Positions 37,476 through 60,847 of a DNA stretch of 63,669 bases are shown piece after piece. This DNA is from Caldimicrobium sp. (lineage in GTDB: Bacteria > Desulfobacterota > Thermodesulfobacteria > Thermodesulfobacteriales > Thermodesulfobacteriaceae). Within the stretch, counting starts at the first letter, position 1. The number at the start of each line of letters is the position of its first letter. Below the pieces are notes generated by a model. It saw only the letters and a program-made list of their open reading frames with translations, did not search any database and had not been told where the DNA came from. Where the stretch lies: assembly GCA_009903935.1 (NCBI GenBank), contig WYEG01000059.1, forward strand, positions 1 through 63,669, read 5' to 3'. The translations under genes were made by a program, and so were the position numbers.

Positions 37476-37555
37476 AAGAGTATTCACTATCATTCTCCGC
37501 TTAACAAGCGCCCCCTTGCTCTTCAGGACGGCAAAACTGGAGCTCTTTGTGCTGT

Positions 37556-37888
37556 GGCTGTTCTAAAAATGTTTTTGTGCAAGCCCTTCTACTGTCACCC
37601 TAAGCCTAATTTTTTGTCACCCCGAGCCTCCCCTCTTTGTCACCCCGAGCCTCCCCTCTTTGTCACCCCGAGCCTCCCCTCTTTGTCGCCCCGAGCTTCC
37701 CCTCATTGTCACCCCGAGCCTCCCCTCTTTGTCGCCCCGAGCTTCCCCTCATTGTCGCCCCGAGCCTCCCCTCTTTGTCGCCCCGAGCGTAGCGAGGGGT
37801 CTCCCCCTGGGGATGCCCTCCCGAACGAAGTGAGAGATGCCTCACTATACCTCGGTAGGGCAGATTATGGAACTTTTTTGAACAGCCC
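37556..37888. repeat. Dispersed palindromic element with ~8 tandem 23-bp units
   Basis: Ends: GGCTGTTCTAAAAATG at the left and, read backwards, GGGCTGTTCAAAAAAGTTCC at the right. From about 37612 to 37790 lie about eight 23-bp units of the type GTC[AG]CCCCGAGCCTCCCCTCT, alternating in small variants, before the core GAGCGTAGCGAGGGGTCTCCC and GAAGTGAGAGATGCCTCAC. An open frame runs through the units into the next gene, but its residues (Ser-Pro-Arg-Ala repeats) come from the repeat. Confidence 0.82.
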
Positions 37889-37955
37889 TTTTTGCGCTTG
37901 CCCAAACTTAATTTTTGATTATTATTATTTTATAACTTTCTCCTTTGGAGGTTAT

Positions 37956-38981
37956 ATGCAAGCTATCCCTCTTGACCTATACGAGGAGCTTGAAGCTTTA
38001 GACCCAAGGATCAAATCTGTCTTTCTCAAGCTTTTTGATTATTTAATGAAGGAAAGGGTGACGAAAGATGACTTTCAGAGGTTAACCGAAAAGGTAGAAA
38101 AATTAGCTGACATCGTAGCCGAGCTCGCCGAAGCTCAGAAAAGCACCAAAGAAGAATTAAAAGCCTTATCTAAAACTGTGTCTGAGCTTGCCGAGGCTCA
38201 GAAAAGAACAGACCAAAGATTAGCTGAGCTTGCTGAGGCTCAAAAGAGAACTGAAGAAGAATTAAAAGCCTTATCTAAAACTGTGTCTGAGCTTGCCGAG
38301 GCTCAGAAAAGAACAGATCAAAAATTAGCTGAACTTGCTGAGACTCAGAAGAGAACCGAACAAAGATTAGCTGAGCTTGCTGAGGCTCAGAAAAGAACAG
38401 ATCAAAAATTAGCTGAGCTTGCCGAAGCTCAGAAAAGAACAGACCAAAGAGTAGCTGAGCTTGCCGAGGCTCAAAAGAAGACTGAAGAAGAATTAAAAGC
38501 CTTATCTAAAACTGTGGCTGAGCTTGCTGAAGCTCAGAAAAGAACCGAAGAAGAAGTCAGAACGCTTGCGCAAGAGCTAAAAAGGACAAGGCAAGACTTG
38601 GGAGGGCTCTCTTTAAGCTTTAGTTATGCCTTTGAAAACGAAGCTTATAGAATGCTCCCTCAAGTTCTAAAAAAGTATGGCTTGGAATTAGAAGACAAGC
38701 TAATAAGAAAAGAAGTTGCTGGAGAAGAAATAAACTTCTTTGCAACCGCAAGGAAGAACGGGAAAACTGTCTACATAGTAGGAGAAACAAAGTTAAGGCT
38801 TGATGATACGAAGAAGAGGGATGATGTGTTTAAACAGCTTGAGAAGAAGATATCAGCGGTAAAAAAGGTGTATGGGGATGTCCAAATAGTTCCGTTGATA
38901 GTTACACATTTTGCGAAAGAGAGTATGCTAAAGAAAGCTAAAGAGAAGGGCATAATCGTCGTCCAAAGCTTTGAGTGGTAG
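37956..38981 (+). CDS. Coiled-coil protein with a C-terminal PD-(D/E)XK nuclease-like domain
   Basis: A 341-residue protein from ATG 37956, which has TTTGGAGG just upstream. An N-terminal helical cap (QAIPLDLYEELEALDPRIKSVFLKLFDYLM) is followed by a long coiled coil built from near-identical 14-residue units (ELAEAQKRTDQ[RK]LA, about 55-210). The last ~115 residues (NEAYRMLPQVLKKYGLELED..., GKTVYIVGETKLRLD, QIVPLIVTHFAKESMLKKAKEKGIIVVQS) have the order of a PD-(D/E)XK fold, with E-T-K as the catalytic strand. Databases often mislabel such proteins as chordopoxvirus fusion protein. The role is unknown. Confidence 0.75.
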   Translation: MQAIPLDLYEELEALDPRIKSVFLKLFDYLMKERVTKDDFQRLTEKVEKLADIVAELAEAQKSTKEELKALSKTVSELAEAQKRTDQRLAELAEAQKRTEEELKALSKTVSELAEAQKRTDQKLAELAETQKRTEQRLAELAEAQKRTDQKLAELAEAQKRTDQRVAELAEAQKKTEEELKALSKTVAELAEAQKRTEEEVRTLAQELKRTRQDLGGLSLSFSYAFENEAYRMLPQVLKKYGLELEDKLIRKEVAGEEINFFATARKNGKTVYIVGETKLRLDDTKKRDDVFKQLEKKISAVKKVYGDVQIVPLIVTHFAKESMLKKAKEKGIIVVQSFEW

Positions 38982-39076: not shown

Positions 39077-39500
39077 GGGCTATTTCAAAAAAGTCCCCCA
39101 CTCCGTCCTGCTGAGCGTCCTTTTTTGTCCTGCCGAGCGTTAGCGAGGCACCCCCATGAGGAAACCCCTCACTTCTTTCGGGATGACGCTTCGGGATGTC
39201 CTCCCTCGGCACGCTTCCCTTTTTGTCCTCCCTCGGCGCTCTTCCCTTTTTTGTCTTCCCGAGGCACGCAAGTGCCGAGGGACCCCCTCGCTTCCTTCGG
39301 GACGACATTTCTCGGCTGTGCCTTCCCGAGGCACGCTTCCCTTTTTTGTCTTCCCGAGGCACGCAAGCGCCGAGGGACCCCTTCGCTTCGTTCGGGACGA
39401 CGCTTCATGAGAAGCCCCCTCGCTCCGCTCGCGGTTACAATAAAGGGGGCTCGCGGTGACAACAGAAGGGCTTGCACATAAACATTTTTTAAACATCTTC
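39077..39500. repeat. Large dispersed palindromic element (424 bp)
   Basis: It begins GGGCTATTTCAAAAAAGTCCCCC, then GTCCTGCTGAGCGTCC, and ends ...GGGCTTGCACATAAACATTTTTT. The centre has repeated blocks of CCCGAGGCACGCAAGTGCCGAGGGACCCC (twice or more, with hairpins CACGCAAGTG) and CGCTTCCTTCGGGACGACATT, apparently from duplication of the core. Several long frames cross it on both strands and are spurious. The remainder of 38982-39575 has nothing else I can identify. Confidence 0.78.
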
Positions 39501-42138: not shown

Positions 42139-42391
42139 TGTCCTGCCGAGCATTAGCGAGGCATCCCGACAGGAGATCCCTCGGGTGCTTGCGCACCATC
42201 AATATGACTTGAAGCCTCTTACCCCTCAGCAATCCCTTTCCATCCCATCTGTCCTGCCGAGTAACCCCTCTTTGTCCTGCCGAGCATTAGCGAGGCACCC
42301 CTCACTTCGTTCGGGACGGCGTCCCATATGAATGACAGGAAATCCTTCGGGTGCTTGCGCACCATCAGAATGACTTGAAGCCTCTTACCCC
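42139..42391. repeat. REP-like cluster and a ~58-bp direct duplication at the distal end of the array
   Basis: Two copies of TGTCCTGCCGAGCATTAGCGAGGCA (about 42139 and 42271) and CTTCGTTCGGGACGGCGTCCC belong to the dispersed repeat family. The segment running from TCGGGTGCTTGCGCACC through GACTTGAAGCCTCTTACCCCTCAGCAATCCCTTT occurs twice (about 42181-42240 and 42347-42408). The second copy runs into the first CRISPR repeat; the first copy ends where the repeat would begin, so an end of the array was copied together with its flank. Confidence 0.65.
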
Positions 42392-45226
42392 TCAGCAATC
42401 CCTTTTTAAGTAGGGCAGGTTTCGACAACTTCATAAAGAAGCTCTAAAAGTCGATAAGCCTTGCCTGTCGCAATCCCTTTTTAAGTAGGGCAGGTTTCGA
42501 CCCGAGCAGGCACATTATATTGATGGAGTGGGGTATATATGTCGCAATCCCTTTTTAAGTAGGGCAGGTTTCGACCCTATTTGAGCCCCTTTTTTTTGTT
42601 TGGGTTTTTTGTGTCGCAATCCCTTTTTAAGTAGGGCAGGTTTCGACGCTTAGCGGGCAGTACAGACAGTATGGCAATCTGTAACAGTCGCAATCCCTTT
42701 TTAAGTAGGGCAGGTTTCGACACTTCAAGGACTTTATCAGCTGAATTAGGAAAACAATTGATGTCGCAATCCCTTTTTAAGTAGGGCAGGTTTCGACTTT
42801 GAATTTTTGGGGGTAAGTGAAGTAAGAAGGAAGGGGTCGCAATCCCTTTTTAAGTAGGGCAGGTTTCGACAGTAAAACTATTCGAAGAGGAGTTTGGGTT
42901 ATTACCTTCGTCGCAATCCCTTTTTAAGTAGGGCAGGTTTCGACATTTTATTCGTGAGATTATTAAGTGAAGGGGAAGAAGATGTCGCAATCCCTTTTTA
43001 AGTAGGGCAGGTTTCGACACTTCAAAAAACGCTTAAAAATAGTACATCCCGAGGGTGCGTCGCAATCCCTTTTTAAGTAGGGCAGGTTTCGACGCGTTGT
43101 CGTCGTTGCATAAGAATACCTTAAAGGTGTGTCGCAATCCCTTTTTAAGTAGGGCAGGTTTCGACTTGCTTACTTAGGGGCTTGGGAGTATTCCCAAGCC
43201 TTTTTTGTCGCAATCCCTTTTTAAGTAGGGCAGGTTTCGACACGAACACGGTATTAAAGCAAAACAAGAATACAAAGAGTCGCAATCCCTTTTTAAGTAG
43301 GGCAGGTTTCGACAAGTCATGAAAAGAGATTTAAAAGAGCTGTTTAATTTTTTGTCGCAATCCCTTTTTAAGTAGGGCAGGTTTCGACACTACAAAATTG
43401 TGGATATTGAATTAATCGCCCAGATCGGTCGCAATCCCTTTTTAAGTAGGGCAGGTTTCGACATTGGGACAGGGTTGTGGGTTATTGGTGTTGGAATATA
43501 GTCGCAATCCCTTTTTAAGTAGGGCAGGTTTCGACTCCTGAAGATTTGGGAGATGAAAATAGTTGTTTTAGGGGTCGCAATCCCTTTTTAAGTAGGGCAG
43601 GTTTCGACTACAATGTTCAGGCAGTCTTTGTGCAAGGAGAGAAAAAAGTTGTCGCAATCCCTTTTTAAGTAGGGCAGGTTTCGACTGGAAGTGTGTAGCG
43701 CAAGCGCAAATTAACTGTCCATCTGGTCGCAATCCCTTTTTAAGTAGGGCAGGTTTCGACGAGGTCAAAAATGATAGTAGAAAAAATCAAAGAAAAAGTC
43801 GCAATCCCTTTTTAAGTAGGGCAGGTTTCGACAAAATTAAAAGGAGGTAAGGGTTATGGAGCAAAAGGAGTCGCAATCCCTTTTTAAGTAGGGCAGGTTT
43901 CGACCCCGTTTGGGGGGGCTCGAAAGAAAGTTAAGAAAGTTAGTCGCAATCCCTTTTTAAGTAGGGCAGGTTTCGACAAAAATTAGAAAAATTATTTAAA
44001 GAAGAATTTGGATTATTGTCGCAATCCCTTTTTAAGTAGGGCAGGTTTCGACGCCTTATTAGGGGCTTGGTTAAAAGCCAAGCCCCCTTTGTCGCAATCC
44101 CTTTTTAAGTAGGGCAGGTTTCGACAACTTTTTGAAGACGAGTTTGGGTTACCTTCAGAATCCTGTCGCAATCCCTTTTTAAGTAGGGCAGGTTTCGACT
44201 AGTAATAAAGAAGGAGTGGGGCGGTGTTGGGTTTATAAGTCGCAATCCCTTTTTAAGTAGGGCAGGTTTCGACCTTGATATGTTAATCTTTATGTTTGGA
44301 TCTATTAAATCAGTCGCAATCCCTTTTTAAGTAGGGCAGGTTTCGACTTGCTTACTTAGGGGGCTTGGGAGTATTCCCAAGCCTTTTTGTCGCAATCCCT
44401 TTTTAAGTAGGGCAGGTTTCGACGGAAGATATAAAAGACATGAAAGAAGCTTTAAAGGCTTAGTCGCAATCCCTTTTTAAGTAGGGCAGGTTTCGACGAA
44501 TGTTAATCCTAAGACAAAAAAGCTTAAAGAAGAGTCGCAATCCCTTTTTAAGTAGGGCAGGTTTCGACTTAGAGCGTTTGGTAGAGGAGTTAGTTGAAGA
44601 GGTGCGGTCGCAATCCCTTTTTAAGTAGGGCAGGTTTCGACAATTTTACGAGATAGTATTAAAGGAAGCAGATGCGAGTCGCAATCCCTTTTTAAGTAGG
44701 GCAGGTTTCGACTCTTTGTAAGGAGAGGAAGGTTGAGTTATCGAATGGTCGCAATCCCTTTTTAAGTAGGGCAGGTTTCGACTTTTTTAAGAGAGATTAT
44801 TATGATATTCCTGAAGATTTAGGTCGCAATCCCTTTTTAAGTAGGGCAGGTTTCGACGCAATTCTGAGTTGTTTTGTTGATTGGAAAAAGTATTTGGTCG
44901 CAATCCCTTTTTAAGTAGGGCAGGTTTCGACTTATCGAGAAGCGGTGTTTTATAATGAGGAAGAGAAGTGTCGCAATCCCTTTTTAAGTAGGGCAGGTTT
45001 CGACATAATTTACCGTTTGATCTGGGAGATGAAAATAGTTGCTGTCGCAATCCCTTTTTAAGTAGGGCAGGTTTCGACTTTTTATTTGGGCAAAAATTAA
45101 AAAAATTAAATTGAGCGTCGCAATCCCTTTTTAAGTAGGGCAGGTTTCGACAAGATTGATTGTAGAAAAAATGAAGAGAATAAATATTCAAGTCGCAATC
45201 CCTTTTTAAGTAGGGCAGGTTTCGAC
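42392..45226 (-). CRISPR. CRISPR array, 39 repeats of 35 bp, 38 spacers
   Basis: The repeat on the + strand begins GTCGCAATCCCTTTTTAAG and ends GGGCAGGTTTCGAC. It has GTCG/CGAC ends and an inner CCCT/AGGG complementarity able to form the hairpin Cas6 recognises. Repeats 2-39 are identical by eye; the first (42392) has lost its three outer bases, which marks the trailer end. The leader is therefore on the right, and transcription runs on the minus strand, giving crRNAs with the 5' tag ATTGCGAC. Spacers are 35-42 nt. Two are near-identical (43166-43206, 44348-44388) and several encode variants of the same peptides. Type III-A by the adjacent csm genes. Confidence 0.97.
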
Positions 45227-45640
45227 CCTAAAAACTCGTAAGCCTTGTAAATTCTGTGTTGTGCTTTTATTCACAATAGGATTTTTTTAAAATTACCCCT
45301 TCCGAGAGCTTGCTAATTCAGCCCTCCAGAGCAAAGGAAAGTAATTAAAAATGACTTAATTTGAGGGACAAAAATTAGCCATTTTTGCCGATTTCCGCTG
45401 AAATTGAGTTGCAATTTACTGGGGAATTTCTCTACACTCCAAAGCCTTTCTAAATCAGCCTTCCAGGGGACGGCAAAATTGTTTAATTATAGATATATAT
45501 ATCTACACGACCCCTTAACGCGAACGCACTATCCCCGTATTTAAAATTTGACATTTTTTTAAAACCTGCCCTGCCCTACTACCCTATTCAGTTGTCAAAG
45601 AGCAAAAGGGGTTTTACAAATCAAATAACTTATAATAATC
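45227..45640 (-). promoter_or_regulatory. CRISPR leader region
   Basis: About 410 bp of AT-rich non-coding DNA between the newest repeat (45192) and a promoter on the minus strand. It contains two related segments in the same orientation, CTTGCTAATTCAGCCCTCCAG (from about 45311) and CTTTCTAAATCAGCCTTCCAG (from about 45448), each followed by an A-rich stretch. It also holds AAACCTGCCCTGCCCTACTACCCT (45562-45585), which resembles the repeat in the opposite orientation to the array's + strand reading. No gene is visible. Confidence 0.6.
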
Positions 45641-45677: not shown

Positions 45678-46080
45678 GGACTGTTCGAAAAAGTCACCAT
45701 ACTTTAGGAAGACCCCTCGCTGACGCTCGGGGAGACAGGTAGAGAGGAGACCCCTCGGCTTACGTCTCGGGGCGACAAAAAAGGGGTGGCTCGGGGCGAC
45801 AAAAAAAAAGGCTCGGGGCGACAAAAAAAGAGCTCAGGGCGACAAAAAGGGGACATTCGGGGCGACAAGTAGAGAGAAGATCCCTCTGCTAACGCCTCGG
45901 GGCGACACACGGAACGCCTCGGGGTGGGGCTAAAAAGGGAGGTGACAATTAGAGTAAATCAAGGGGGACAGGTAGAGAAATTCGAAGGGATGGGTAGAAT
46001 GAGTTTGAGGCGATAAATTGGTGGCGTTCGGGGTGTCAGGTAGAGGCGTTGAAGATGATAAGTAGAGGGCGGTTGGAGGT
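45678..46080. repeat. Decayed, expanded copy of the dispersed palindromic element
   Basis: It begins GGACTGTTCGAAAAAGTCACC (the AAGTCCC-type end). It then carries GACCCCTCGCTGACGCTCGGGG and about ten decaying units of GGCTCGGGGCGACAAAAAA, ending in runs of GACA[GA]GTAGAG. The opposite terminus is not recognisable. It separates the CRISPR leader from the cas2/cas1 genes, and no gene is visible here. Confidence 0.65.
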
Positions 46081-46091
46081 AGGGGAAAATG

Positions 46092-46337
46092 CTAAAACAC
46101 AACCCTCAATCTTTCCCACTCTTTGCCGATCTTCCGAATTTCTCCTAACGGGTTTACCTTAAAAATAGCAATGCGAAAGTTCTGCCCCTCTTCTTCAAGA
46201 AGAGCTTTTAAAATCTTGTCTTTACTCTCTAAACTTTCAAAAACGCTCCATTGGGCATGCAAGCCAAGTTTTTTTAAAGCTTTCCGCACCTTCCGACGAA
46301 CCTTTTCAGTTTCATAATCGTAAAGAATTATCCTCAT
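46092..46337 (-). CDS. cas2: CRISPR-associated endonuclease Cas2 (second copy)
   Basis: An 81-residue ferredoxin-like protein: MRIILYDYETEKVRRKVRKALKKLGLHAQWSVFE has the beta1-alpha1-beta2 pattern and the Asp at position 7 of Cas2 (VYD type). With Cas1 it forms the integration complex. Its C-terminus (KIGKEWERLRVVF) lacks the usual extension. It is last in the minus-strand adaptation operon and the nearest cas gene to the leader. It is clearly different from the other cas2 at 47235-47495. Confidence 0.85.
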   Translation of the reverse strand: MRIILYDYETEKVRRKVRKALKKLGLHAQWSVFESLESKDKILKALLEEEGQNFRIAIFKVNPLGEIRKIGKEWERLRVVF

Positions 46338-46348
46338 TCTTGCTTAAC

Positions 46349-47224
46349 TTAAACCTCAAAGCTTTCTAAATCTGATAGGAAAAGCCTCATAGGCACAAGT
46401 AGTTCTTCCTTAAGGGGATTAAATCTCTCTAAAACTCTTCTAACCGCTTGTTTCTTGAGCAAATATGCTCCATGTTCTCTATGGAAATCACCCTTAGAAA
46501 CCGTCCCATCCTGAAGAAGCTTCGCACAAAATAGCGTAAGCTGAGGTCTAATGATTTCAACGAGGTCTGAGGCAAAGGAGGCATGACTTCCCCTTTTAAC
46601 ATGAAGGAAAGAAATATAAGGGTCAAAACCTTTGAGTAAAATCAAGCTTAAAGCTAAGTTGTAGCCAAGGGTGTAGACAAAGCTAAGCAGGGCGTTTACT
46701 TCATCCTTTGGTGGATAGTAGGTTCTCTCTTCAAACTTAAAGTCAGTTCCAGAGAGTAATCTTTCAAAGCTTTCAAACATAGCCTTTGATATAGATCCTT
46801 CAACACCAAGAATTTGGTTTAGATCGTTTGCTTTTTTAAGAGCTTCTTTAGACTTATTTAGTTCAAGATTAAAAGTTACCTCTACTTCATCACACTTTCT
46901 TTGAACAATAAGCCTTGCTATTTCAAGCTTTTTAAAGTAGTAAAGAGTAAACTGTTTTATACGTTTGCTGGTTGCTTCGCTCTGAGGAGGTGGAAGAATT
47001 AGACCTTTTAGGGTTCCATACTGAGTAAGAAGTAATATAGGAACATTATGCTTCATGCATAAAGAAATTACTTCAGAAGTAAGCTTTGCCTTACCGAAAA
47101 CTAAAATCCCATCAATATTAGGAAGTGGTAATTCTGATTTTATCTTTGGAGTTTCTATACATACCCTGTCTGATTTTCTACTTATTTCAACGAAATGGCT
47201 GTAGACAATAACGGTTTGCTTCAT
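46349..47224 (-). CDS. cas1: CRISPR-associated integrase Cas1
   Basis: A 291-residue integrase. The N-terminal beta domain has LPLPNIDGILVFGKAKLTSEVISLCMKHNVPILLLTQYG, and the C-terminal helical domain holds the metal site: Glu in SISKAMFESFERLL (about 147-160), His in GFDPYISFLHVKRGSHASFASDLVEIIRP (about 203-231) and the Asp/Glu of DLVEIIRP. There is no RT or other fusion. It sits between two cas2 genes, 10-11 bp from each. Confidence 0.95.
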   Translation of the reverse strand: MKQTVIVYSHFVEISRKSDRVCIETPKIKSELPLPNIDGILVFGKAKLTSEVISLCMKHNVPILLLTQYGTLKGLILPPPQSEATSKRIKQFTLYYFKKLEIARLIVQRKCDEVEVTFNLELNKSKEALKKANDLNQILGVEGSISKAMFESFERLLSGTDFKFEERTYYPPKDEVNALLSFVYTLGYNLALSLILLKGFDPYISFLHVKRGSHASFASDLVEIIRPQLTLFCAKLLQDGTVSKGDFHREHGAYLLKKQAVRRVLERFNPLKEELLVPMRLFLSDLESFEV

Positions 47225-47234
47225 GTATTAATCA

Positions 47235-47495
47235 TTATATCACAAAAATTTTCCAAGGTTCAAGCGGATATCCTTTAAAAACTTCGGGTTCAGAGACAGG
47301 ATAGAAGAAAACTCTGTCTGTAGTTTTGTCAACGATTTTAGAAATCTCTTGGTAGAGAAAGTCGATAACCCTTTTTTTAGCGTTTGGAAGATAAAAGGCG
47401 CTGTAAAGTATGCGGTAGCCAAATTTCTGCAGCATACGAGAGACTTTTAAACGTTTCTTAGGGTCAGAAATATCGTAAACTACAAGGTAATCCAT
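47235..47495 (-). CDS. cas2: CRISPR-associated endonuclease Cas2 (first copy)
   Basis: An 86-residue Cas2: MDYLVVYDISDPKKRLKVSRMLQKFGYRILYSAFYLPNAKKRV has the VVYDI strand with the conserved Asp8 and the arginine-rich first helix, followed by DRVFFYPVSEPEVFKG. It overlaps the upstream 229-residue gene by 16 bp and precedes cas1 by 10 bp. It looks canonical; the second copy after cas1 is more divergent. Confidence 0.93.
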   Translation of the reverse strand: MDYLVVYDISDPKKRLKVSRMLQKFGYRILYSAFYLPNAKKRVIDFLYQEISKIVDKTTDRVFFYPVSEPEVFKGYPLEPWKIFVI

Positions 47496-48169
47496 AGCTG
47501 ATTAGGGGTGGCTCCATAGCGGATTAATTTTAAGTATGGAAGTCGAAGTAAGGCTTTTCCGTGTCTACAAAGTAGAAAAGAGATAAAACTTTTAGCTATT
47601 ATTACAGGATTTTTCATCTTTTCTCCCAAGAGTAAGTCGGCAGTGGATTCAAACACTGTGAAAACGAAGGCTGGAGCAAAGAAAAAATCGTCAAGAAAGT
47701 CGTGTCCGTAAGTTTCATCTATAAACTTAGGGAGTTTGGCTGGTAAGCCAAGTTTTGTGAAGAATAAAGCAGTTAGAATAGAACAAGCGATGCTATAGTA
47801 ATGATAGTATCCTTCTATAAGGCTTGATACTTGTTGTGCTAAGACAGGAAAGGGCGGAAACTGGTCTATGCTTTTTCCATAAAGTAAAATCTCTCTGTAT
47901 TTCAGGGCAAAGTAAACAGAAAGATTAAAGTCTTCTTTCCAAATTTTAGGGTTGATTATGTAATGATAGATTAGAAGTTTAACTGGTCGTGAAGGAGGTG
48001 GGAAGTTAGAATAACATCTAAGATAATTTTGAGTAGGATATAGCATTATAATTGGAATACCTTGGGGGAGTATGATGTTTTCAGGAAAATTTCTTAAAGA
48101 AATTATGCAGGATATGCCATCAAAAGAATCTATGGACTGACCATGGTAGATTAAAATCTTTCCCTGCAT
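47480..48169 (-). CDS. Unrecognised protein heading the cas2-cas1-cas2 operon
   Basis: A 229-residue protein of no family known to me. It is not a Cas6, Cas4 or CARF protein by eye (no Gly-rich loop, no Cys cluster). The start MQGKILIYHGQSIDSFDGISCII faintly recalls the first motif of DHH phosphoesterases (H, D, DGIS), as in nrnA in this same window, but the DHH motif itself is not found. The C-terminus is distinctive: CRHGKALLRLPYLKLIRYGATPNQLWITL. Two or three hydrophobic helices lie in the middle. It overlaps cas2 by 16 bp, so it is translated with the adaptation genes and probably helps spacer acquisition or signal clearance. Confidence 0.65.
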   Translation of the reverse strand: MQGKILIYHGQSIDSFDGISCIISLRNFPENIILPQGIPIIMLYPTQNYLRCYSNFPPPSRPVKLLIYHYIINPKIWKEDFNLSVYFALKYREILLYGKSIDQFPPFPVLAQQVSSLIEGYYHYYSIACSILTALFFTKLGLPAKLPKFIDETYGHDFLDDFFFAPAFVFTVFESTADLLLGEKMKNPVIIAKSFISFLLCRHGKALLRLPYLKLIRYGATPNQLWITL

Positions 48170-50150: not shown

Positions 50151-51545
50151 CTAAGCTTTACTGCTCAATAAAATTTTTTCAATTCTCCTTAAAACCTCAT
50201 CTCCATAATATTTAATAAACACTTTGTCTCCCTGTCTTCTAACATAAACGCAATTTCTTTCAAACCCGCAATGGGCAAGAAAATTACGAGGCTTTATCTC
50301 GTCACTCTCTCCTATGATTAAATTTCGTAGGGGGACATAATGCTCGGGAATATTATTTTTTATTTCTTCCCTTTCAAAGGTGTTGCTAAGTTCATGAGAA
50401 AAATACTCACGGTTTTGCTTTAGTTCAAAACAATTATAAAAGCTTTGATTTTCATCTCTGAAATTTCGAGCAAGTTCTTCTAATTCGACCTCTTCTTTTT
50501 TAAAAATCTTATATTCTTTCAATACTTTTAGAATTCCTTTATAGATAGATAGCATAAGGAAAGCTTTACGAAATAGATCAAACTTTAAGCCAGGAGTTGA
50601 TTGGTAGTTAGAGTAAAGGCTTTGCTTAACAAAGTTTATAAGATCAGCGATACCTCTATCTATTTCCTCTTCTTGATGATATTCCCAGGTATAAAGGACA
50701 AGAGGTGAATTATTCTTTATTGCAGAATAAAAGAAATAACCATATGAAAAGAGTTCGTTAAGTTGTCTCTTGAATGGTCGTAATTCTTTGTCCTCGCCGA
50801 TAAGGTCTTTTGCAAATTTAGAATAAGCATTATCTAATTTATTTTGAATTGGCTTTTCAGGAAAACTGAAGAAAGTCTTTACTTCTAAACAAAAATCTTT
50901 ATGAACTTGAAATGTTCTATTATAAGGTGCCACAATCGGGTCTGAAAAGGTTATAAAAACCTTTAGTCCATTCTGTTTTAAATTAAAGTTCTGAAGTTTA
51001 TAAAAAGTTAAAAACAATCTTCCAGCTTCAAGAAGAGCTGAAGTATATATATTATGACCACTTGAGATATCAAGATAAAGTTCAGAAAAGGTCTCATCTT
51101 GATACCGTTTAACCATATCAATAAAGATTTCAAGAATCAGTTCTTCTAAAGTTGCAGAAAATTTTATACCTCCATACTGACCTATGCTATGAATTACTAT
51201 AAATCCATCTGCTTCTTTTGAATGAGGATGCTTTTCAAAATAGGGATATGGATTTGAGAGATAGTTAGAAAGTTTGTTTTGATCGGATAAAATACTTTCT
51301 ATTACCTTTTTAAACTCTACTGGAATATTTTGAGTTTGTGTAGCCTTTTCGTTTAAAAGTGAGCTGTTTAAAAATAAGCTAACGGGATAGATAAGAATAA
51401 CCTTAGATGCTTGTTCATTTTCAAGAAAGCTTTGGCGAAGAGCAAAAGAACTAAGTAGAGCTTCGTATACCTTTCCATGAACTTCAAATTTAATGGGATT
51501 AAAAGCGCCTCGCTCAAGCCTTCCAATTTGGTAAATTAGCTTCAT
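50151..51545 (-). CDS. csx1: CRISPR-associated CARF-HEPN ribonuclease Csx1
   Basis: A 464-residue ancillary effector. The N-terminal CARF-type domain (about 1-235) includes LYLDISSGHNIYTSALLEAGR (about 157-177), the pocket helix that binds cyclic oligoadenylate. The C-terminal HEPN domain carries RNFLAHCGFERN (about 425-436), the R-x4-H catalytic motif; both catalytic residues are present, so it should be active. Activated by the second messenger made by Cas10, it cuts single-stranded RNA without specificity. It is last in the csm operon. Confidence 0.88.
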   Translation of the reverse strand: MKLIYQIGRLERGAFNPIKFEVHGKVYEALLSSFALRQSFLENEQASKVILIYPVSLFLNSSLLNEKATQTQNIPVEFKKVIESILSDQNKLSNYLSNPYPYFEKHPHSKEADGFIVIHSIGQYGGIKFSATLEELILEIFIDMVKRYQDETFSELYLDISSGHNIYTSALLEAGRLFLTFYKLQNFNLKQNGLKVFITFSDPIVAPYNRTFQVHKDFCLEVKTFFSFPEKPIQNKLDNAYSKFAKDLIGEDKELRPFKRQLNELFSYGYFFYSAIKNNSPLVLYTWEYHQEEEIDRGIADLINFVKQSLYSNYQSTPGLKFDLFRKAFLMLSIYKGILKVLKEYKIFKKEEVELEELARNFRDENQSFYNCFELKQNREYFSHELSNTFEREEIKNNIPEHYVPLRNLIIGESDEIKPRNFLAHCGFERNCVYVRRQGDKVFIKYYGDEVLRRIEKILLSSKA

Positions 51546-51556
51546 CGATGTCCTCC

Positions 51557-52477
51557 TTAAACTTCAACGATTTCATACTTTCCCAGACCAAAAGAAGTGT
51601 TTTTCCCGCAATGTAATATTTCACCAGCTTTTAATAAAGGGAAAAATGGTTCAATTGGTCCTTCAAAGGTAATATTGCCTATTAGTCCTCCTAACTTCAT
51701 TCTTTTGTCTTGTCTATAAGAAAATCGTTCCCAATCATACCATTTAAGATCATTATCTACTACCTTTACCTTTTCAGCGAGCTCAATTAAAACCTTAGCA
51801 GGTATTTCTGGTAGTTTCTCCGAAACATGGTAATAGTATAATACAGTTAGCCTTCTTAATAATGAACGAACAAGATGATGAAATTCTAATTTTCGAACAA
51901 GCTTTTTATTATGAATTAATCTTAGAGGCGTATGAATGTTTATTAATACTTTAGATGATTTCTGATGATGTAAAACATCGTTAGTTAGTGGAAAATTTAC
52001 ACTTAATCTTAAAATATCCGTAGATAAAGTATCTTTAAGAATAAACTTTCTATTCTCTTTTCCGATGCCATGCTCACCTGCTAACTCAACTGCAATTATA
52101 AAATAGGGTTCATAAGATACAGCTTTTCCTATCAAGACTATTTTTAACAAAAAGGTTTCCCCGGATTTAAAGATGTTTTTATTATCTAAAGGGGGTTCAA
52201 TGACAAAAGGATGCGGGATAGAAGGATATTTGTGAAGATTGAAAGGCAGTTTTTTATGGGGATCAGGAATTGTCTCAAAGATGTAAGCATAATAGCAGTT
52301 TTTGTAGATTGGACATTGATGGCAATCTTTGTAGCTTTTTAAAACACACAGGGCTTGTCTTAAGGTTCTCCCTATTACCCCTCTGAAAGAGGAACCTTTG
52401 AATGAGGGTAAGTGTAGTTCATCAATTGGTTCGCAGGTGATATTTATAATTTTGTATGGTATTTCAAGCTCACTCAT
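51557..52477 (-). CDS. cas6: CRISPR pre-crRNA endoribonuclease Cas6
   Basis: A 306-residue RAMP protein. It has the Cas6 (PF10040-like) layout: SFRGVIGRTLRQALC, a Cys cluster CHQCPIYKNCYYAYIFE (about 53-69), and the C-terminal glycine-rich loop GKNTSFGLGKYEI (about 292-304). It should cleave within the array repeat and leave the 8-nt tag. It follows csm5 after 2 bp. Catalytic His is not certain by eye; several His lie at 187-207. Confidence 0.85.
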   Translation of the reverse strand: MSELEIPYKIINITCEPIDELHLPSFKGSSFRGVIGRTLRQALCVLKSYKDCHQCPIYKNCYYAYIFETIPDPHKKLPFNLHKYPSIPHPFVIEPPLDNKNIFKSGETFLLKIVLIGKAVSYEPYFIIAVELAGEHGIGKENRKFILKDTLSTDILRLSVNFPLTNDVLHHQKSSKVLINIHTPLRLIHNKKLVRKLEFHHLVRSLLRRLTVLYYYHVSEKLPEIPAKVLIELAEKVKVVDNDLKWYDWERFSYRQDKRMKLGGLIGNITFEGPIEPFFPLLKAGEILHCGKNTSFGLGKYEIVEV

Positions 52478-52479
52478 GT

Positions 52480-53640
52480 TTATGAAAGTTTTTCAAACCT
52501 TAAAAGCGCCCAACCAAAAGGCATGGCTTGAGAAATATTTTTCTTTTGCTCGCTGGCAAGCCAAATTGTAGTGGGAGAAGTTTGATATTCAGTTCTACCT
52601 CCCTCTCTTCTAATTAAGATTTTTCTTATTTTATCTATAGTCATAGCTTCTGCTCCGGAGTGTTTTCCAAGCTTGATGAGAATAGCCTTTCTTTCTTTAA
52701 TATCCATCTTATGAGACTCGTGTAGACCGAATATCTTAAAACCAATATTTTTAGCTAAATCGTATTCATTTTTAAGTATCACCCTAAAGTGTCCCCATAC
52801 CCCTTCTATCAACTTAGACATTTCAATCTTCACTGGATTTCGTTTCAAATTTTCTGTTTCTGCTTTTATTTCTAAAATGCCTTCAAACTTTGCCCCAGGC
52901 GGTATAACTTCTATAGGCAAGGTAAGTCTGCCTCTTGTCTCTCCTTTTTGTTTGCTTACATTTACTTGGTATAATATTTTAGTTTCAATAGGAGAAATAG
53001 GGTTTAAATCAGAAATCTTTAACGCACCAAAAGGGTCTTTCGAAGGATTAGGACAGTTTAGTAATTGTTTTTCTAAAGTTTCCATTATTTCATTTATTTC
53101 TCCCCTCCTCGTACGCGAATTAATATTATTAACTCTTTCAATAATTTCTCTTATTGAGGGGTTGTTTTCGTTTTTCTTTAACAAAAACTCTAAATACCCT
53201 GTTCTTAAGGCCCCTTTGAGAGAGCTTCCTGGGATAATCGGTTGTTCGGTTAAGGGATTAAAGTAGGTCCTTGAAATTTCAAAGTTATTAAAATTTTGAA
53301 GTATCTCATCTGAAGTTAGTCTCAAGACCTCATCATATCTTTTTGCAAGCTCATAAGGTATAATGAATTGTTTTATATTAGTAAGCTTTTTTATCTTATC
53401 TTTTAAACGATAAGCATAGAATTTATATAGATCAACCAATGCTGATGGGTCCTTTTTATTTGAAATTCTATCAAGTTCATTCTTTTCTTCTAACGAAAAC
53501 ACTTCTAATAGATCAAAAAGTGAAAACTTAATTAGTTTTCTCTCTTCGCCATCTATTACAAACTCAACGGGTGATAAAACTTCATCGCATCCAATATGAA
53601 TAGGGCTTAAGGCTTCAATGGTTATTTTGTATCTTATCAT
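52480..53640 (-). CDS. csm5: Type III-A effector subunit Csm5
   Basis: A 386-residue RAMP-fold subunit capping the 3' end of the crRNA in the Csm complex. Opening YKITIEALSPIHIGCDEVLSPVEFVID, and PIIPGSSLKGALRTGYLEFLL (about 134-154), the glycine-rich RAMP signature, are typical. It overlaps csm4 by 26 bp. Confidence 0.88.
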   Translation of the reverse strand: MIRYKITIEALSPIHIGCDEVLSPVEFVIDGEERKLIKFSLFDLLEVFSLEEKNELDRISNKKDPSALVDLYKFYAYRLKDKIKKLTNIKQFIIPYELAKRYDEVLRLTSDEILQNFNNFEISRTYFNPLTEQPIIPGSSLKGALRTGYLEFLLKKNENNPSIREIIERVNNINSRTRRGEINEIMETLEKQLLNCPNPSKDPFGALKISDLNPISPIETKILYQVNVSKQKGETRGRLTLPIEVIPPGAKFEGILEIKAETENLKRNPVKIEMSKLIEGVWGHFRVILKNEYDLAKNIGFKIFGLHESHKMDIKERKAILIKLGKHSGAEAMTIDKIRKILIRREGGRTEYQTSPTTIWLASEQKKNISQAMPFGWALLRFEKLS

Positions 53641-54586
53641 AACTTACCTCCACTGGTATAACCAGAGAATAACCTTGATGCACTGCCTTTTCTATAATTG
53701 AAGACACCCCTAAAATTGCCCTGCCTACATAAATTCTTTTTTCAAACTTTTTTGGGATTAAAATTACTCCTTCATCAGCCATGAGGACTGGAGATTTAAA
53801 GGGGTTAGGAGACGCGCTTAAGACATCTCCATGACGACCAAACCGAATAAAGGGTTCGTAAAAAATTTCAGCATAATTACCGCTTTTGTCAGGAACGACA
53901 GGTGATAGAGCATAGTAGGCATTTTCTGTTTGTCTGGTGTTTGCATAGAAGTCTATTTCCTCATAGCTTAATACCTCGAATTTGCCCCATCCTGCAGTAG
54001 CATCCCTTCCATATCCAAATTTTCCTATCCGCTTTAACGCTTCAATAATTCCTTCAATAGATATGTCCTCTCTAACTCCGACAAAAAGAACAAGCTTAGT
54101 TATATACCAAAGCTTGGGGACTACAAAAGGGGTAAATCCTCCTCTACTCGTAGTTCCTAAAAGTCTGTGTATGGTGCATCTAACTTGCTCATCTTTCACT
54201 ATGATTACATCATCCGATGACAAGTATTCTATTTGATTTAATGGTGGTAAAGGGGGCTTGTATACAAAATATTCTTTAGCTTTTAATTCTTTTCTTTTTT
54301 GGACTAACTCTTCCTCGGGTAAGCTAAATAAAAAGTGTAAAGGTAAGGATGGTTTTTTAAGGTAGATTTGAGCTTCATCACTACTATTTCGATCTATATA
54401 TGGATAGGCTGAAGAAACTATACAAAAAGGATTTATTAAATAATCATTAAGTAAAGTTTCTAAATCTTTACCAAGTAAATCTTTATCGTAATAAATTTGC
54501 CAGCATATGTGTCCGAATAAGGTATCACCTTTTAACGGGGTCCCGAACCCGGTTAGAGGTTTTATGATAATTTGATAGGTTTTCAA
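53615..54586 (-). CDS. csm4: Type III-A effector subunit Csm4
   Basis: A 323-residue RAMP-fold subunit that holds the 5' handle of the crRNA next to Cas10. Start YQIIIKPLTGFGTPLKGDTLFGHICWQIYYD with the RAMP glycine pattern, and a second glycine-rich loop FGYGRDATAGWGKFEVL (about 195-211). It follows csm3 by 25 bp and overlaps csm5. Confidence 0.87.
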   Translation of the reverse strand: MKTYQIIIKPLTGFGTPLKGDTLFGHICWQIYYDKDLLGKDLETLLNDYLINPFCIVSSAYPYIDRNSSDEAQIYLKKPSLPLHFLFSLPEEELVQKRKELKAKEYFVYKPPLPPLNQIEYLSSDDVIIVKDEQVRCTIHRLLGTTSRGGFTPFVVPKLWYITKLVLFVGVREDISIEGIIEALKRIGKFGYGRDATAGWGKFEVLSYEEIDFYANTRQTENAYYALSPVVPDKSGNYAEIFYEPFIRFGRHGDVLSASPNPFKSPVLMADEGVILIPKKFEKRIYVGRAILGVSSIIEKAVHQGYSLVIPVEVSYDKIQNNH

Positions 54587-54611: not shown

Positions 54612-55364
54612 TTAATCAAAAAGTTTTATTTGTTCAAACTTCTGTTTTATATCCTCATTATAAAAATGGAATTTTATCCTTCCATAACCTCTTGAACCAC
54701 AACCTCCTAAGTAATCAAGCTCAAGAAGCTTCATACCCTTGAGAAGAATATCAAGTAGTTCTTCATCTTCATCAGAGTAAATTTTTAAAGTAATTCGAAA
54801 ATTAAATTCAGCTCCTGCTGGCACTCTTTCTGTAAAACGAGGGTGTTCAGCAGTTCCTGTTATTCTGTTGATACGATTTTCTGCTTTTATTTCGGTATAG
54901 GGTAGATTTTTATCATTAATTTCTTTCTTGAACTTTTCAGTTAAAAAACAATCGGAAAAAGCTACTCTTGTTGGACCAATTTCCTTGGCAACCTTCTCTC
55001 CTGCTCCAGAAAGACCAAATAGTTTTATAATAATTCTAGCACAATTCGTAATTTCATCTGGAACTTCTATTTTATTTTGATTTTGATTGTTATCCAAAAG
55101 TTTATATGATGTTATACCTCCACTCTCTTTATCAACTTTTATCGAATATGTTGGTAAGCCCATATAATACTCAAGTAAACTTCTAATTTTCCCTTTTAAA
55201 CTTGAACCAGGAATGTATGGTTCATTGAAATAAGGATGTTTTATAACTAAATTATCAACTCCACCAATATGCATTTCTGTATTACCTGATCCAATGTGTA
55301 AACCAGTTAAAAGCTCGATCTTGCCAGTAATTTCGTAAATCTTTTGAAGTTTTAGTGCTATCAT
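54612..55364 (-). CDS. csm3: Type III-A backbone subunit Csm3 (target-RNA nuclease)
   Basis: A 250-residue RAMP protein forming the filament backbone and cutting target RNA every 6 nt. The catalytic Asp loop is intact: LHIGSGNTEMHIGGVDNLVIKHP (about 22-44, Asp37 in GGVDN). RAMP motif IPGSSLKGKIRSLLEYYM (about 51-68) and C-terminal GGCGSRGYGRIKF (about 221-233). It lies 42 bp after csm2. Confidence 0.92.
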   Translation of the reverse strand: MIALKLQKIYEITGKIELLTGLHIGSGNTEMHIGGVDNLVIKHPYFNEPYIPGSSLKGKIRSLLEYYMGLPTYSIKVDKESGGITSYKLLDNNQNQNKIEVPDEITNCARIIIKLFGLSGAGEKVAKEIGPTRVAFSDCFLTEKFKKEINDKNLPYTEIKAENRINRITGTAEHPRFTERVPAGAEFNFRITLKIYSDEDEELLDILLKGMKLLELDYLGGCGSRGYGRIKFHFYNEDIKQKFEQIKLFD

Positions 55365-55406: not shown

Positions 55407-55916
55407 TTAATCGCTTGGTCTATGAAAACGGTAATACCCCATGAAAGCCTCAAAGAAGTTCTTGAAAACTTCAAAGTCATCCCAATCTTCAATTTGGTTT
55501 AAACATTTTTCTATCATCTCTTTAAAATCATTATCAATATGCTTTCTACCTAAAGAATAGTAAACTTTCGCACGAATCATTTTAATGAAAGGTAAAAATT
55601 GTTTAAAATTTTCTTTAGGTTTATTCTTTAAATTATCGTAAAAAAACAGTACCTCATCATAAAACTTGCGTATTTGTGATCGTCTATTTTTATTTTGTTT
55701 CTGCCTATTAATGTCTCCTGAGTCAGACCAGCCGCTTATTTTCTCAGACCAATCGTAAGCGATTTTTGAAAATAAATCAGGATTTACTAATCTTTTTTCT
55801 TTATCTATCCAAAATTTTATTTCAGTGGAGTTAGGTCTTTCGTTGTGTTGTTGAGTTGAACGTTGCCCTGAACCTTGTGGAGACCTTCGGTCATTTCTCA
55901 TGCTACCTTGCGTCAT
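55407..55916 (-). CDS. csm2: Type III-A small subunit Csm2
   Basis: A 169-residue helical protein when started at ATG 55916 (AAGGAGGG 8 bases upstream); a longer frame to 55976 would sit inside cas10. The Gln/Ser/Arg-rich start (residues 1-30) is disordered, followed by the Csm2 helical bundle: IRKFYDEVLFFYDNLKNKPKENFKQFLPFIKMIRAKVYYSLGR (about 81-123). It stabilises the complex on target RNA. It overlaps cas10 by 14 bp. Confidence 0.87.
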   Translation of the reverse strand: MTQGSMRNDRRSPQGSGQRSTQQHNERPNSTEIKFWIDKEKRLVNPDLFSKIAYDWSEKISGWSDSGDINRQKQNKNRRSQIRKFYDEVLFFYDNLKNKPKENFKQFLPFIKMIRAKVYYSLGRKHIDNDFKEMIEKCLNQIEDWDDFEVFKNFFEAFMGYYRFHRPSD

Positions 55917-58497
55917 CTTTTGCCCTCCTTGTAGAGTATAGTATTTGCCAAAGAGGAAGCCTAAAAGCTTCCCCATAATTTTCTAAAGCATCTTTTATTT
56001 CTCTCAAAAAATTTTCCAATTCCTTTTGTCTAATTTCTTTGTCTAACCTTCTTTTTTTATCAAAATTTCTTACCGTAAAATAATAAAGTAAACTTCTCCA
56101 CAAAAGACATTTTAAATTATTGAGAGAAATACCTTTTATTGATCTACTCGTAGCTGTGCTTATTAACTTCTTTTCTTTAGCTACCATTTCAATTATATCG
56201 TTTAACTTGTATAAAAAACTTTTAGTTAAGATTTCTGTATCTTCATCGCATAAAGAGATAAGTTTTATTTTCCACTGTTCTAATGTTGGAATATTATCCC
56301 ATACAATATCAGTCTTAAATATAAATAATCTGTTTCTTCCTGCCTTCTTTGCTTGAGAAAGAAGAAATTCTGTTCTTTCCGCAAGCTCAATTACAGGAAT
56401 ATTAGGTTTAGTAAGTAAATAACCCGCTGATAAAGTAACATCTTTGTTACAGCAAACATATTTTTCAAACTTTTGTCTAACTTCTAAGATAAAATTGTAA
56501 CTTTCTTCCCAGGGTCCAACAACGAACAAATCATCTCCTCCACAAAAGACATTATAAATGTTCTTAAATTTTGTTTGGCAGAGATAAGGTAAATAAAACG
56601 CAAAAAATAGATTTAACATCCGAGAAAGAGCTAAGTATCTGGTAAAAGTTCTCTTGCTTGGGCGTAATCCTTTAAGAAAAATGCTCCCAAGATTATCCAC
56701 ATCTGCTTTGATAACGCCCAGTGCCTCAATGCCGGTAGTTGTTCCATTCTTTTTCTTTAAAGATAAGTTGGCAAGTTCTTCAAAGCTGAGTGGAATTTTG
56801 CTATCATTGGATACAACTAAAGGAACATAAGCATTTATAAACTTTTTTGCAAAAATAGCTTTTCTCTCTTCGTCACTACTTGCAGGTAAAGCTATATCCC
56901 ATATTGTCACTAAATTTTTATTAGCTAATTCTCTTTTGCATAATGAACTTTTGTCTTCAAACTTAGCATAATATTTGTTTAATATAGGAACAGTATTTAC
57001 AAATCCCGTATTTGTTTCTTTATTTTCTATTTCATAAATTAAAATAAACTTATTTTTAACTAATGCTTCACCAATTCTCTTCTGATCTCTACAAATTAAA
57101 CAAACAGGAATCTCTTCCTTTTCATTTTCTCTTTCAAATATTTCGTTTCTTTTTGCAGGTCTTTTCCCACATAATTTACATACTCCAAATCCAGAAAAGC
57201 TCGATAAATAATCCTCTATAGCTCCGCCAAATTGAAAGAGGTCAAATTTTTGATACTTTTTTTCTTCTGACTTTTTACCCAATCTTTTTAATAATTGGCT
57301 ATATCTGTCTTCCTTTAAGAAATCCTCGGGTTTAGCTTCGATATATGTTAATCCAATGGAAGTTTCCCCATAATAATATTGATAAAGCCAATTGTTTATC
57401 TCGTTTTCTATGTCCCGAAGTTTCTCTTTAATCTTGGTTAAATTAGGAGCAATAATCAAAAATTTACCGGCTGCAGAATATAACAGATTTACAAAAGGTA
57501 AACCTAATTGTCTCATGATATAATCTGCCACAAGCTCTGAATACATTGAAACCATAAAGGAACGCCCACGGAGGATTTTAGCAGCCCATTTCCTCGTTTC
57601 ACCTCCGCTTGCGAAAATAAATTTTTGTATTCCGTAGAAGTTTCCTTCTATGAATAAAAATTTGCTTTCATCAAGTTTTTTTATAGATTGTTCAGTTAAA
57701 CTATCCGTATTTTTGTGATATAAATACAAAGTAGAACCTAAGCTTGCTGTGAAATAAGAATGATCGTAGAGAGAAATATCGCTCAAAATCTTAACAAATG
57801 AATAAGTTGTCCCAGATCCAACAGTTGCTGAAGGAATAAATAAGAAGTATTTCAGCATCAAAGTATTTAATGCTTCTAACCAAATATCCGGTCTTTCTTT
57901 TAGAATTGAAATTTCTTTAAACGATTCTATAAAGCTGAGCCATATTTCATAGTATTTTTCTTGGGTAGCAAGCCCGTTAGTCCGCTCAACTGGAAAGATG
58001 TTTTCAGGCGATAATACATCAAGTTTGTATGCAAATCGATAATTTTCTAATTTATCTTCCTTCCAAGTATCATTTAGACTAAGATCCTCAAAGATGGTTA
58101 AAAGTGAGATATTAGCCGAAGTTTCGCCTTTTTCAAATTTTATTTCTTCATCTAAGTTCCTTCTTTCAAATCCGCTACTCAGTCTATCAGCCTGATGAAT
58201 AATCCATTCCCAAGGTGTTTCAGGTTTATGATGTTTTGCGGATAAATTTATCAAAGAATATTCAGCCTTTTCTTCTTGTAGAAAGAGGCTTGGAATGTAA
58301 TCTTTAAAATCTTCAATAAATTTAGCAGTATAAAGGACATGTTTATGTGTGTAATGCCCATTAATAAAACGTTGATAAATGTCGCGGTTTCCTCTTATAT
58401 ACTCCTCTGGTAGTTGTTGCCCCGTTCTTTGATAGACCTTTCCTATGTCATGAAGCAGGGCTGATAAAACAATCTTTTGTAAAATTATGTCGTCCAT
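55903..58497 (-). CDS. cas10: Cas10 (Csm1), cyclic-oligoadenylate synthase
   Basis: An 864-residue large subunit of the Csm complex. The N-terminal HD nuclease is complete: LSALLHDIGKVYQRTG (His-Asp at about 15-16) with conserved His in FINGHYTHKHVL and LSAKHHKP, for cutting ssDNA. A zinc module CKLCGKRP...CLICRDQ lies at about 440-475. The second palm domain has NVFCGGDDLFVVGPWEE (GGDD at about 659-662), which makes cyclic oligoadenylate from ATP. Both activities should work. It follows calpL after 63 bp and precedes csm2 with overlap. Confidence 0.94.
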   Translation of the reverse strand: MDDIILQKIVLSALLHDIGKVYQRTGQQLPEEYIRGNRDIYQRFINGHYTHKHVLYTAKFIEDFKDYIPSLFLQEEKAEYSLINLSAKHHKPETPWEWIIHQADRLSSGFERRNLDEEIKFEKGETSANISLLTIFEDLSLNDTWKEDKLENYRFAYKLDVLSPENIFPVERTNGLATQEKYYEIWLSFIESFKEISILKERPDIWLEALNTLMLKYFLFIPSATVGSGTTYSFVKILSDISLYDHSYFTASLGSTLYLYHKNTDSLTEQSIKKLDESKFLFIEGNFYGIQKFIFASGGETRKWAAKILRGRSFMVSMYSELVADYIMRQLGLPFVNLLYSAAGKFLIIAPNLTKIKEKLRDIENEINNWLYQYYYGETSIGLTYIEAKPEDFLKEDRYSQLLKRLGKKSEEKKYQKFDLFQFGGAIEDYLSSFSGFGVCKLCGKRPAKRNEIFERENEKEEIPVCLICRDQKRIGEALVKNKFILIYEIENKETNTGFVNTVPILNKYYAKFEDKSSLCKRELANKNLVTIWDIALPASSDEERKAIFAKKFINAYVPLVVSNDSKIPLSFEELANLSLKKKNGTTTGIEALGVIKADVDNLGSIFLKGLRPSKRTFTRYLALSRMLNLFFAFYLPYLCQTKFKNIYNVFCGGDDLFVVGPWEESYNFILEVRQKFEKYVCCNKDVTLSAGYLLTKPNIPVIELAERTEFLLSQAKKAGRNRLFIFKTDIVWDNIPTLEQWKIKLISLCDEDTEILTKSFLYKLNDIIEMVAKEKKLISTATSRSIKGISLNNLKCLLWRSLLYYFTVRNFDKKRRLDKEIRQKELENFLREIKDALENYGEAFRLPLWQILYSTRRAKDDAR

Positions 58498-60033: not shown

Positions 60034-60847
60034 CTATAGCCTCCAGCCAAGAAGTATAATCTGGAAGTTCAGGAAGGTTTGTAAATTCAAGCCTTAATGT
60101 CTCTAATGTGCCCTCAAATAATACATTGTTTGCAACTTTTATGGTTATTTTTTGTCCTAAGTAATCTTGTGGAAGATAGAGGGTAAGTTTTGGTCCAATC
60201 TCGGGGATCTTTTCAACTATGGCAAAGAAGTTTTTACCTTTATGCACATTTTTAGAAGATGCTGCCTTGGCGTAGGCAAAATAAGAATTTTCGTAATAGT
60301 TTTTTAAGTCATCCGAGATAATAAAGACTGAAGGAGCAAATTGATACTCTTCAAGCTTTTCAAGGTAAGTCAAGATGGATTCTGTGTTGTATGGGGCGAG
60401 AAGTTCCATCAGAGAGCGGATGTATTCTCCGCGAATGTCCTGAGGGATTCTAGCTCGCTCCGCGTAGCCTTCAAGTCGGTGGATATCCTCATCGTTAAGC
60501 ACACCGAGCTTGTTAGTATAGCTAAGTAAGAATTTTTCATCTAAATAGACCCAAAATGGCAGAGCTACTATAACAGTTTTTAGATGAGAAAGTTTTATCA
60601 CAGGGGTTTGGGGACCAAGCCAGCCAAGAGCAATTTCCTCCGTCAAAACGATAGCCTTGAAAAGCTTCACTTGCTCAATTGGAAGCTCCTCAATTAATGC
60701 AAAATACAGGGGAGGTACTGTGGATAGCTCCCTCAACTCATTGACCTTTGGCGGAACCTTTTTGGAAACAGGAAATATTCTAAGGTCTTTTTCTCTCAAG
60801 GATTTATAAAGCTCCAATTCTCTTTGAAGTTTATCTTTCTTCCGCAT
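60014..60847 (-). CDS. calpT: CalpT: MazF-like anti-sigma factor, target of CalpL
   Basis: A 277-residue protein next to calpL. The first half has a PemK/MazF-like look (VPPLYFALIEELP, KLFKAIVLTEEIALGW, LKTVIVALPFWVYLDEKFLLSYTNKLG). A middle helical part (about 115-190) would bind the sigma factor. A Lys/Ala/Ser-rich, probably flexible stretch (about 189-203, AYAKAASSK) precedes a ~75-residue beta-rich C-terminal piece. This matches the known division of CalpT into a ~23-kDa and a ~10-kDa fragment, so cleavage near residue 195 is plausible. The identity rests on position, size and pattern, not on alignment. Confidence 0.8.
   Translation of the reverse strand: MRKKDKLQRELELYKSLREKDLRIFPVSKKVPPKVNELRELSTVPPLYFALIEELPIEQVKLFKAIVLTEEIALGWLGPQTPVIKLSHLKTVIVALPFWVYLDEKFLLSYTNKLGVLNDEDIHRLEGYAERARIPQDIRGEYIRSLMELLAPYNTESILTYLEKLEEYQFAPSVFIISDDLKNYYENSYFAYAKAASSKNVHKGKNFFAIVEKIPEIGPKLTLYLPQDYLGQKITIKVANNVLFEGTLETLRLEFTNLPELPDYTSWLEAIDVEISV

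Follow-up and report, generated by a model that had tools for sequence, protein, structure and literature searches.

Apparent resampling of homologous coding sites by a type III-A CRISPR array of Caldimicrobium sp. with no detectable reverse transcriptase

The type III-A CRISPR array of Caldimicrobium sp., a thermophilic sulfate reducer, appears to have sampled the same few coding sites several times over. As read from the spacers, the LF[EK][ED]EFGL triple formed by spacers 7, 22 and 24 is one of at least four coding families in this array, all in the same orientation. We propose, with good confidence, that the array reflects repeated acquisition from homologous genes of related invaders, combined with selection for spacers whose crRNAs bind mRNA. 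The window, that is, the whole stretch of DNA that was analysed, is 63,669 nucleotides long, and its main features are collected in Table 1.

Table 1. Positions in the window of the array, the spacers discussed and the cas genes
Feature	Position	Strand	Description
Type III-A CRISPR array	42392–45226	−	39 repeats (GTCGCAATCCCTTTTTAAGTAGGGCAGGTTTCGAC, 35 nt), 38 spacers; transcribed leftwards
Spacer 1	42427–42466	+	LHKEALKVDKPC; candidate fifth family
Spacer 7	42871–42909	+	VKLFEEEFGLLP; LF[EK][ED]EFGL triple
Spacer 10	43094–43130	+	ALSSLHKNTLKV; candidate fifth family
Spacer 11	43166–43206	+	Intrinsic-terminator-like hairpin, T tract on +
Spacer 16	43536–43573	+	PEDLGDENSCFR; second family (IPEDLGDENSC)
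Spacer 17	43609–43650	+	TMFRQSLCKERKK; third family (SLCKERK)
Spacer 19	43761–43797	+	GAGGT(N)5ATG start site, MIVEKIKEK; fourth family
Spacer 20	43833–43869	+	Ribosome-binding site plus ATG (AAGGAGGTAAGGGTTATGGAGCAAAAG)
Spacer 22	43978–44017	+	KLEKLFKEEFGL; LF[EK][ED]EFGL triple
Spacer 24	44126–44164	+	LFEDEFGLPSES; LF[EK][ED]EFGL triple
Spacer 27	44348–44388	+	Terminator of spacer 11 with homopolymer length changes
Spacer 32	44713–44747	+	LCKERKVELSN; third family (SLCKERK)
Spacer 33	44783–44822	+	FFKRDYYDIPEDL; overlaps spacer 16 (PEDL; last bases TTAG vs TTGG)
Spacer 36	45005–45043	+	NLPFDLGDENSC; second family (IPEDLGDENSC)
Spacer 38 (newest)	45152–45191	+	LIVEKMKRINIQ; fourth family (MIVEKIK)
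Leader region (approximate extent)	45227–45400	−	Right flank of the array
Second Cas2-like protein	46092–46337	−	81 aa; PF09827, 3.2e-08
Cas1	46349–47224	−	291 aa; no RT domain
Cas2	47235–47495	−	86 aa; PF09827, 2e-14
229-aa protein	47480–48169	−	Heads the adaptation operon; conserved
Csx1 (CARF-HEPN)	50151–51545	−	
Cas6	51557–52477	−	
Csm5	52480–53640	−	
Csm4	53615–54586	−	
Csm3 (RAMP match)	54612–55364	−	Assigned by operon position
Csm2	55407–55976	−	
Cas10/Csm1	55903–58497	−	TIGR02578, 3.8e-186

Spacers 7, 22 and 24, whose positions and plus-strand translations are exactly those given by the first-pass annotation, share the peptide (K)LF[EK][ED]EFGL, each in a different register, and the codons flanking it differ among them. 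In an all-against-all protein comparison, their pairwise BLOSUM62 scores were 42, 38 and 34. Summed over the three pairs, the codon differences comprise 10 synonymous and 4 non-synonymous changes, and the nucleotide differences at codon positions 1/2/3 number 4/0/11. Spacer 24 is one codon shorter than spacer 7, an in-frame codon indel. Because the offset of the shared peptide differs from spacer to spacer, the three are separate acquisitions and not duplications within the array. The annotation had explained the triple by repeated acquisition from homologous genes of related viruses, as a record of virus drift. Independent, repeated uptake from homologous coding sequence is borne out by the synonymous divergence of different spacers in a common frame, the shifted registers, the presence of several families and the sister genome described below; a viral source, one orthologous gene rather than paralogues, and a time series of drift go beyond these data. 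The annotation also understated the case, as at least three further coding families lie in the same array.

The second family (spacers 16, 33 and 36) carries the peptide ...YYDIPEDLGDENSCFR; spacers 16 and 36 score 50, and spacers 16 and 33 are one synonymous base apart over a 14-nt overlap. In the third family (spacers 17 and 32), the codon differences within LCKERK are 4 synonymous and 0 non-synonymous. The fourth joins spacers 19 and 38. Spacers 1 and 10, with 5 synonymous and 2 non-synonymous codon differences and a score of 30, near chance level, probably form a weak fifth family, LHKxxLKV. The terminator-like spacers 11 and 27, which have identical left boundaries, may be array duplicates rather than separate acquisitions, and their group perhaps includes spacer 23. 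Across the whole array, 7 same-strand DNA pairs score at least 26, compared with 0.43 in shuffles, and the single opposite-strand pair at this level is the self-complementary terminator. Codon position 3 takes 82 of the 152 differences over 20 pairs, a count biased to third positions because the pairs were chosen by protein similarity.

No second array with this repeat was found in the 1.56-Mb genome (68 contigs, 97% complete). The array adjoins the cas genes. Its left-most repeat is degenerate and its right flank is conserved across relatives; therefore, the leader is placed at the right. The right-hand leader, minus-strand transcription and minus-strand cas genes imply, for spacers with plus-strand frames, crRNAs antisense to mRNA. 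The array orientation thus supports the earlier statement that the three spacers of the triple read in the sense direction and that their minus-strand crRNAs are antisense to the mRNA, the orientation to be expected of an RNA-sensing defense. At and to the left of the old array end lie two 72-bp copies (42168–42239 and 42334–42405), 94% identical, both ending in a truncated start of the CRISPR repeat, CAGCAATCCCTTT. Short GC-rich imperfect repeats of the CTCGGGGCGACA type cluster around the array (45700–46080 and 39110–39470), and the open reading frame at 37554–38981 contains tandem 21/42-nt coding repeats at 38077–38555.

A codon model gave a sense fraction of 0.85 (0.64–0.99) for the spacers, and the purine content of the plus strand exceeds 0.5 in 31 of 37 spacers of this array. 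A nearly identical repeat is found in other arrays of the same family, with database matches by name to Thermodesulfobacterium thermophilum DSM 1276 and T. hveragerdense DSM 12571. The type III sister arrays of the Thermodesulfobacteriaceae share the purine-rich, sense-start pattern. Over all type III arrays, 119 of 156 spacers are purine-rich on the plus strand (119 to 37, p = 3e-11), compared with 39 of 93 (39 to 54) in three non-type-III control arrays of sister genomes, which lie beside a second kind of cas1 and are taken as type I from their repeats. Motifs combining a ribosome site with ATG occur on the plus strand of 13 of the 159 type III spacers and on the minus strand of none; among 99 control spacers, there is one on the plus strand and none on the minus strand. 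Base composition accounts for part of the strand signal. Indirectly, from the spacers rather than from protospacers, these patterns indicate that the crRNAs of most spacers would be antisense to mRNA.

The recurrence of sites is also seen in the complete sister genome G015. About eight of its spacers cover FEK-L-LKG-EKSQKMK-FL, further spacers are variants of one start site (a ribosome site, then ATG AAA GGA TTT TAT and similar), and two spacers overlap head to tail. In genome G010, a second III-A array (L116, repeat GTTGAAACCTGCCCTGGATTAAAAGGGATTGCGAC) has 7 of 29 spacers spanning a ribosome-binding site and start codon by a loose pattern, six by a strict one, all of them sense.

The size of the target was estimated with a model that assumes even sampling of spacers along the sense strand of a homologous region. 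With 7 overlapping pairs among 703, the effective target comes to about 4.3 kb (2.1–10.7 kb), and the same model gives 3.9 kb (2.7–6.1 kb) for G015; these figures are rough, since family members are non-independent and diverged overlaps go undetected. Spacers 11 and 27 were excluded as a possible array duplicate. Conservative family counting raises the target to 6–8 kb; from the control arrays, a target of roughly 27 kb or more follows. A few kilobases would suit a small element or, equally, a restricted protective stretch within a larger one.

Searches of IMG/VR, INPHARED, plasmids (PLSDB) and GTDB genomes turned up no protospacer. GTDB contigs gave 0 matches, INPHARED and PLSDB none or noise, and nothing above noise came from the 30 genomes of the family and the 395 of the phylum. 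In IMG/VR, the patterns DLGDENSCF and [IL]PxDLGDENSC and the terminator core each had 0 matches; KLF[EK][DE]EFGL had one (L009), about the chance expectation from the information content of the pattern; chimeric peptides gave no convincing match; and EKSQKMK, from the G015 family, occurred in 16 stretches, every one in an unrelated frame. None of the spacer peptides matched PHROGs or Pfam, a single PHROG with E = 0.24 being disregarded. Two candidates were rejected: the best-looking match lies over the start of a G021 gene that we take to be purD-like (MKILVLGGGGREH), and a match in G000 (C51) runs antisense to a presumably HemW-like gene. The first-pass annotation had expected hits in one orthologous gene; the searches returned neither these nor protospacers in unrelated genes. 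Only the self-complementary terminator spacers gave an opposite-strand pair above chance.

The cas locus combines Cas10/Csm1, Csm2–Csm5, Cas6 and Csx1/Csm6 and is of type III-A (Csm). Next to Cas10, at 58561–60847 (−), lie a SAVED-Lon protease (CalpL-like) and its CRISPR-T (CalpT-like) partner, a cyclic-oligoadenylate-triggered protease module alongside Csx1, with an HTH protein at 60924–61607. Adaptation has its own four-gene operon, [229-aa protein]-Cas2-Cas1-Cas2-like, in which two different Cas2 proteins, related to each other (hhalign 94.7%), flank Cas1; six genomes of the family preserve this gene order. RVT_1 (PF00078) is absent from the 97%-complete genome, and no reverse transcriptase is fused to or encoded beside Cas1. 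The derivation of spacers from RNA by a reverse transcriptase was rejected on these grounds; uptake from RNA is thus unlikely, an enzyme acting in trans being possible within the missing 3% of the genome.

The 229-aa protein is confined to this family among the 395 phylum genomes searched (L116:7984-8661, L117:12127-12807, L104, L105 and L102), and a weak match in G022 comes from a broken frame. Searches of the protein against Pfam, NCBIfam, PADLOC and PDB sequences gave no match, and other members of its family have single weak, unrelated Pfam matches. Its AlphaFold model is of low confidence (pLDDT 59); the 16 best Foldseek matches are Cas1 structures, none of them significant (best E = 0.076), and a profile comparison with the neighboring Cas1 found no relation. 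By this weak structural similarity, the protein could possibly be a diverged relative of Cas1.

We propose that, at different times, the host took short pieces of DNA from homologous copies of a few genes, the invaders that carried them, viruses or plasmids, being related but diverged. One LFEEEFGL-coding site would have left its three drifted versions in spacers 7, 22 and 24, and at least three other sites would have been sampled likewise. Uptake by Cas1-Cas2 would probably be from DNA and in both orientations. Only a minus-strand crRNA, complementary to an invader mRNA and probably to an early transcript, would protect the cell, and selection would leave the array nearly all sense on the plus strand and focused on a few kilobases. 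We infer selection, rather than directed uptake, as the cause of the bias, along with early expression and a viral or plasmid source.

This process resembles that of the type III system of Thermus thermophilus, which also lacks a reverse transcriptase and takes up DNA from both strands, selection then leaving transcript-complementary spacers (PMC7515739). Under phiFa/phiKo, its phiFa spacers concentrate in the 6.6-kb terminal repeat, an early region (PMC7515739), and the spacers described here likewise read as transcript-complementary and aimed at a narrow region. Unlike in Thermus, where the phage was known and acquisition experimental (PMC7515739), here a natural array carries drifted versions of recurring sites. 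A Thermus-type process repeated against related, diverging invaders would be the most economical reading. A coding-strand preference is common to our array and to type III spacers surveyed in genomes, which are mostly without known targets, but it averages 65% there (PMC8482600) and about 85% here, with wide limits. Transcript-directed memory is shared with the RT-Cas1 system of the Marinomonas type (PMC5576922), whereas here neither an RT domain nor RVT_1 is present.

The bias could instead stem from acquisition, the homologous-gene reading being shared: the adaptation machinery would prefer certain sites (ribosome-site and start regions, terminator hairpins, the displaced coding strand) or RNA-derived material. 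We regard this as improbable, although it is the strongest of the alternatives. The start-site spacers, all sense, the terminator-like spacers 11, 27 and L055.24, and an adaptation operon made unusual by the 229-aa protein and the second Cas2 speak for it. A review reports that in S. thermophilus III-A unselected uptake favors terminator hairpins and, on the coding strand, regions directly downstream of start codons (PMC9048733); the same enrichment of start codons and terminators is seen here, where acquisition and selection are inseparable, and by this analogy some contribution of uptake to the bias is possible. However, the genome has no reverse transcriptase, most spacers of the families come from within coding sequence, and unselected uptake in Thermus shows no orientation bias (PMC7515739).

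Somewhat less likely still, a single invader may carry several related genes or a repeat protein, so that the families would reflect gene duplication and not virus drift. Because no protospacer was found, paralogues of one element and orthologues of different elements are inseparable until an invader genome is at hand, and the families of our array have two or three members only. Paralogy would nevertheless require several multicopy genes, as several unrelated peptides recur and G015 holds many variants of one site, and the single synonymous base between spacers 16 and 33 looks like one gene in two close strains. It is unlikely that uptake itself is biased in these Thermodesulfobacteriaceae III-A systems by an asymmetric integrase, formed by Cas1, two Cas2 proteins and the fourth protein with its slight structural likeness to Cas1, that installs mRNA-antisense spacers from a few kilobases (start regions and terminators) without a reverse transcriptase. 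Duplication within the array followed by mutation, true of exact duplicates in G015 (L054.1/7, L055.8-9/11-12 and 43/44) and possibly of spacers 11 and 27, is ruled out for spacers 7, 22 and 24 by their shifted registers, and their flanking codons, codon indel and mainly synonymous changes are unlike spacer decay; we regard this reading as extremely improbable. Equally negligible is chance likeness among AT- and purine-rich 39-mers of low complexity: weak pairs such as 22/37 and 1/10 are at or near noise, but of 400 dinucleotide-shuffled versions of the entire array, 16 held any single pair scoring at least 34 and 0 a mutual triple, which, with the opposite-strand control, excludes chance for the triple.

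Repeated acquisition with selection thus remains our preferred reading. One natural array, read alone, would show that a type III-A system without a reverse transcriptase carries almost only mRNA-antisense guides and keeps resampling a few sites of changing invaders. The biology is ordinary; its legibility is unusual. Orphan spacers may in this way become a sensor, and the recovered peptides could serve as search handles for parasites of Thermodesulfobacteria. The same peptides would make the question of selection or directed uptake testable, with the four-gene adaptation operon as a concrete candidate.
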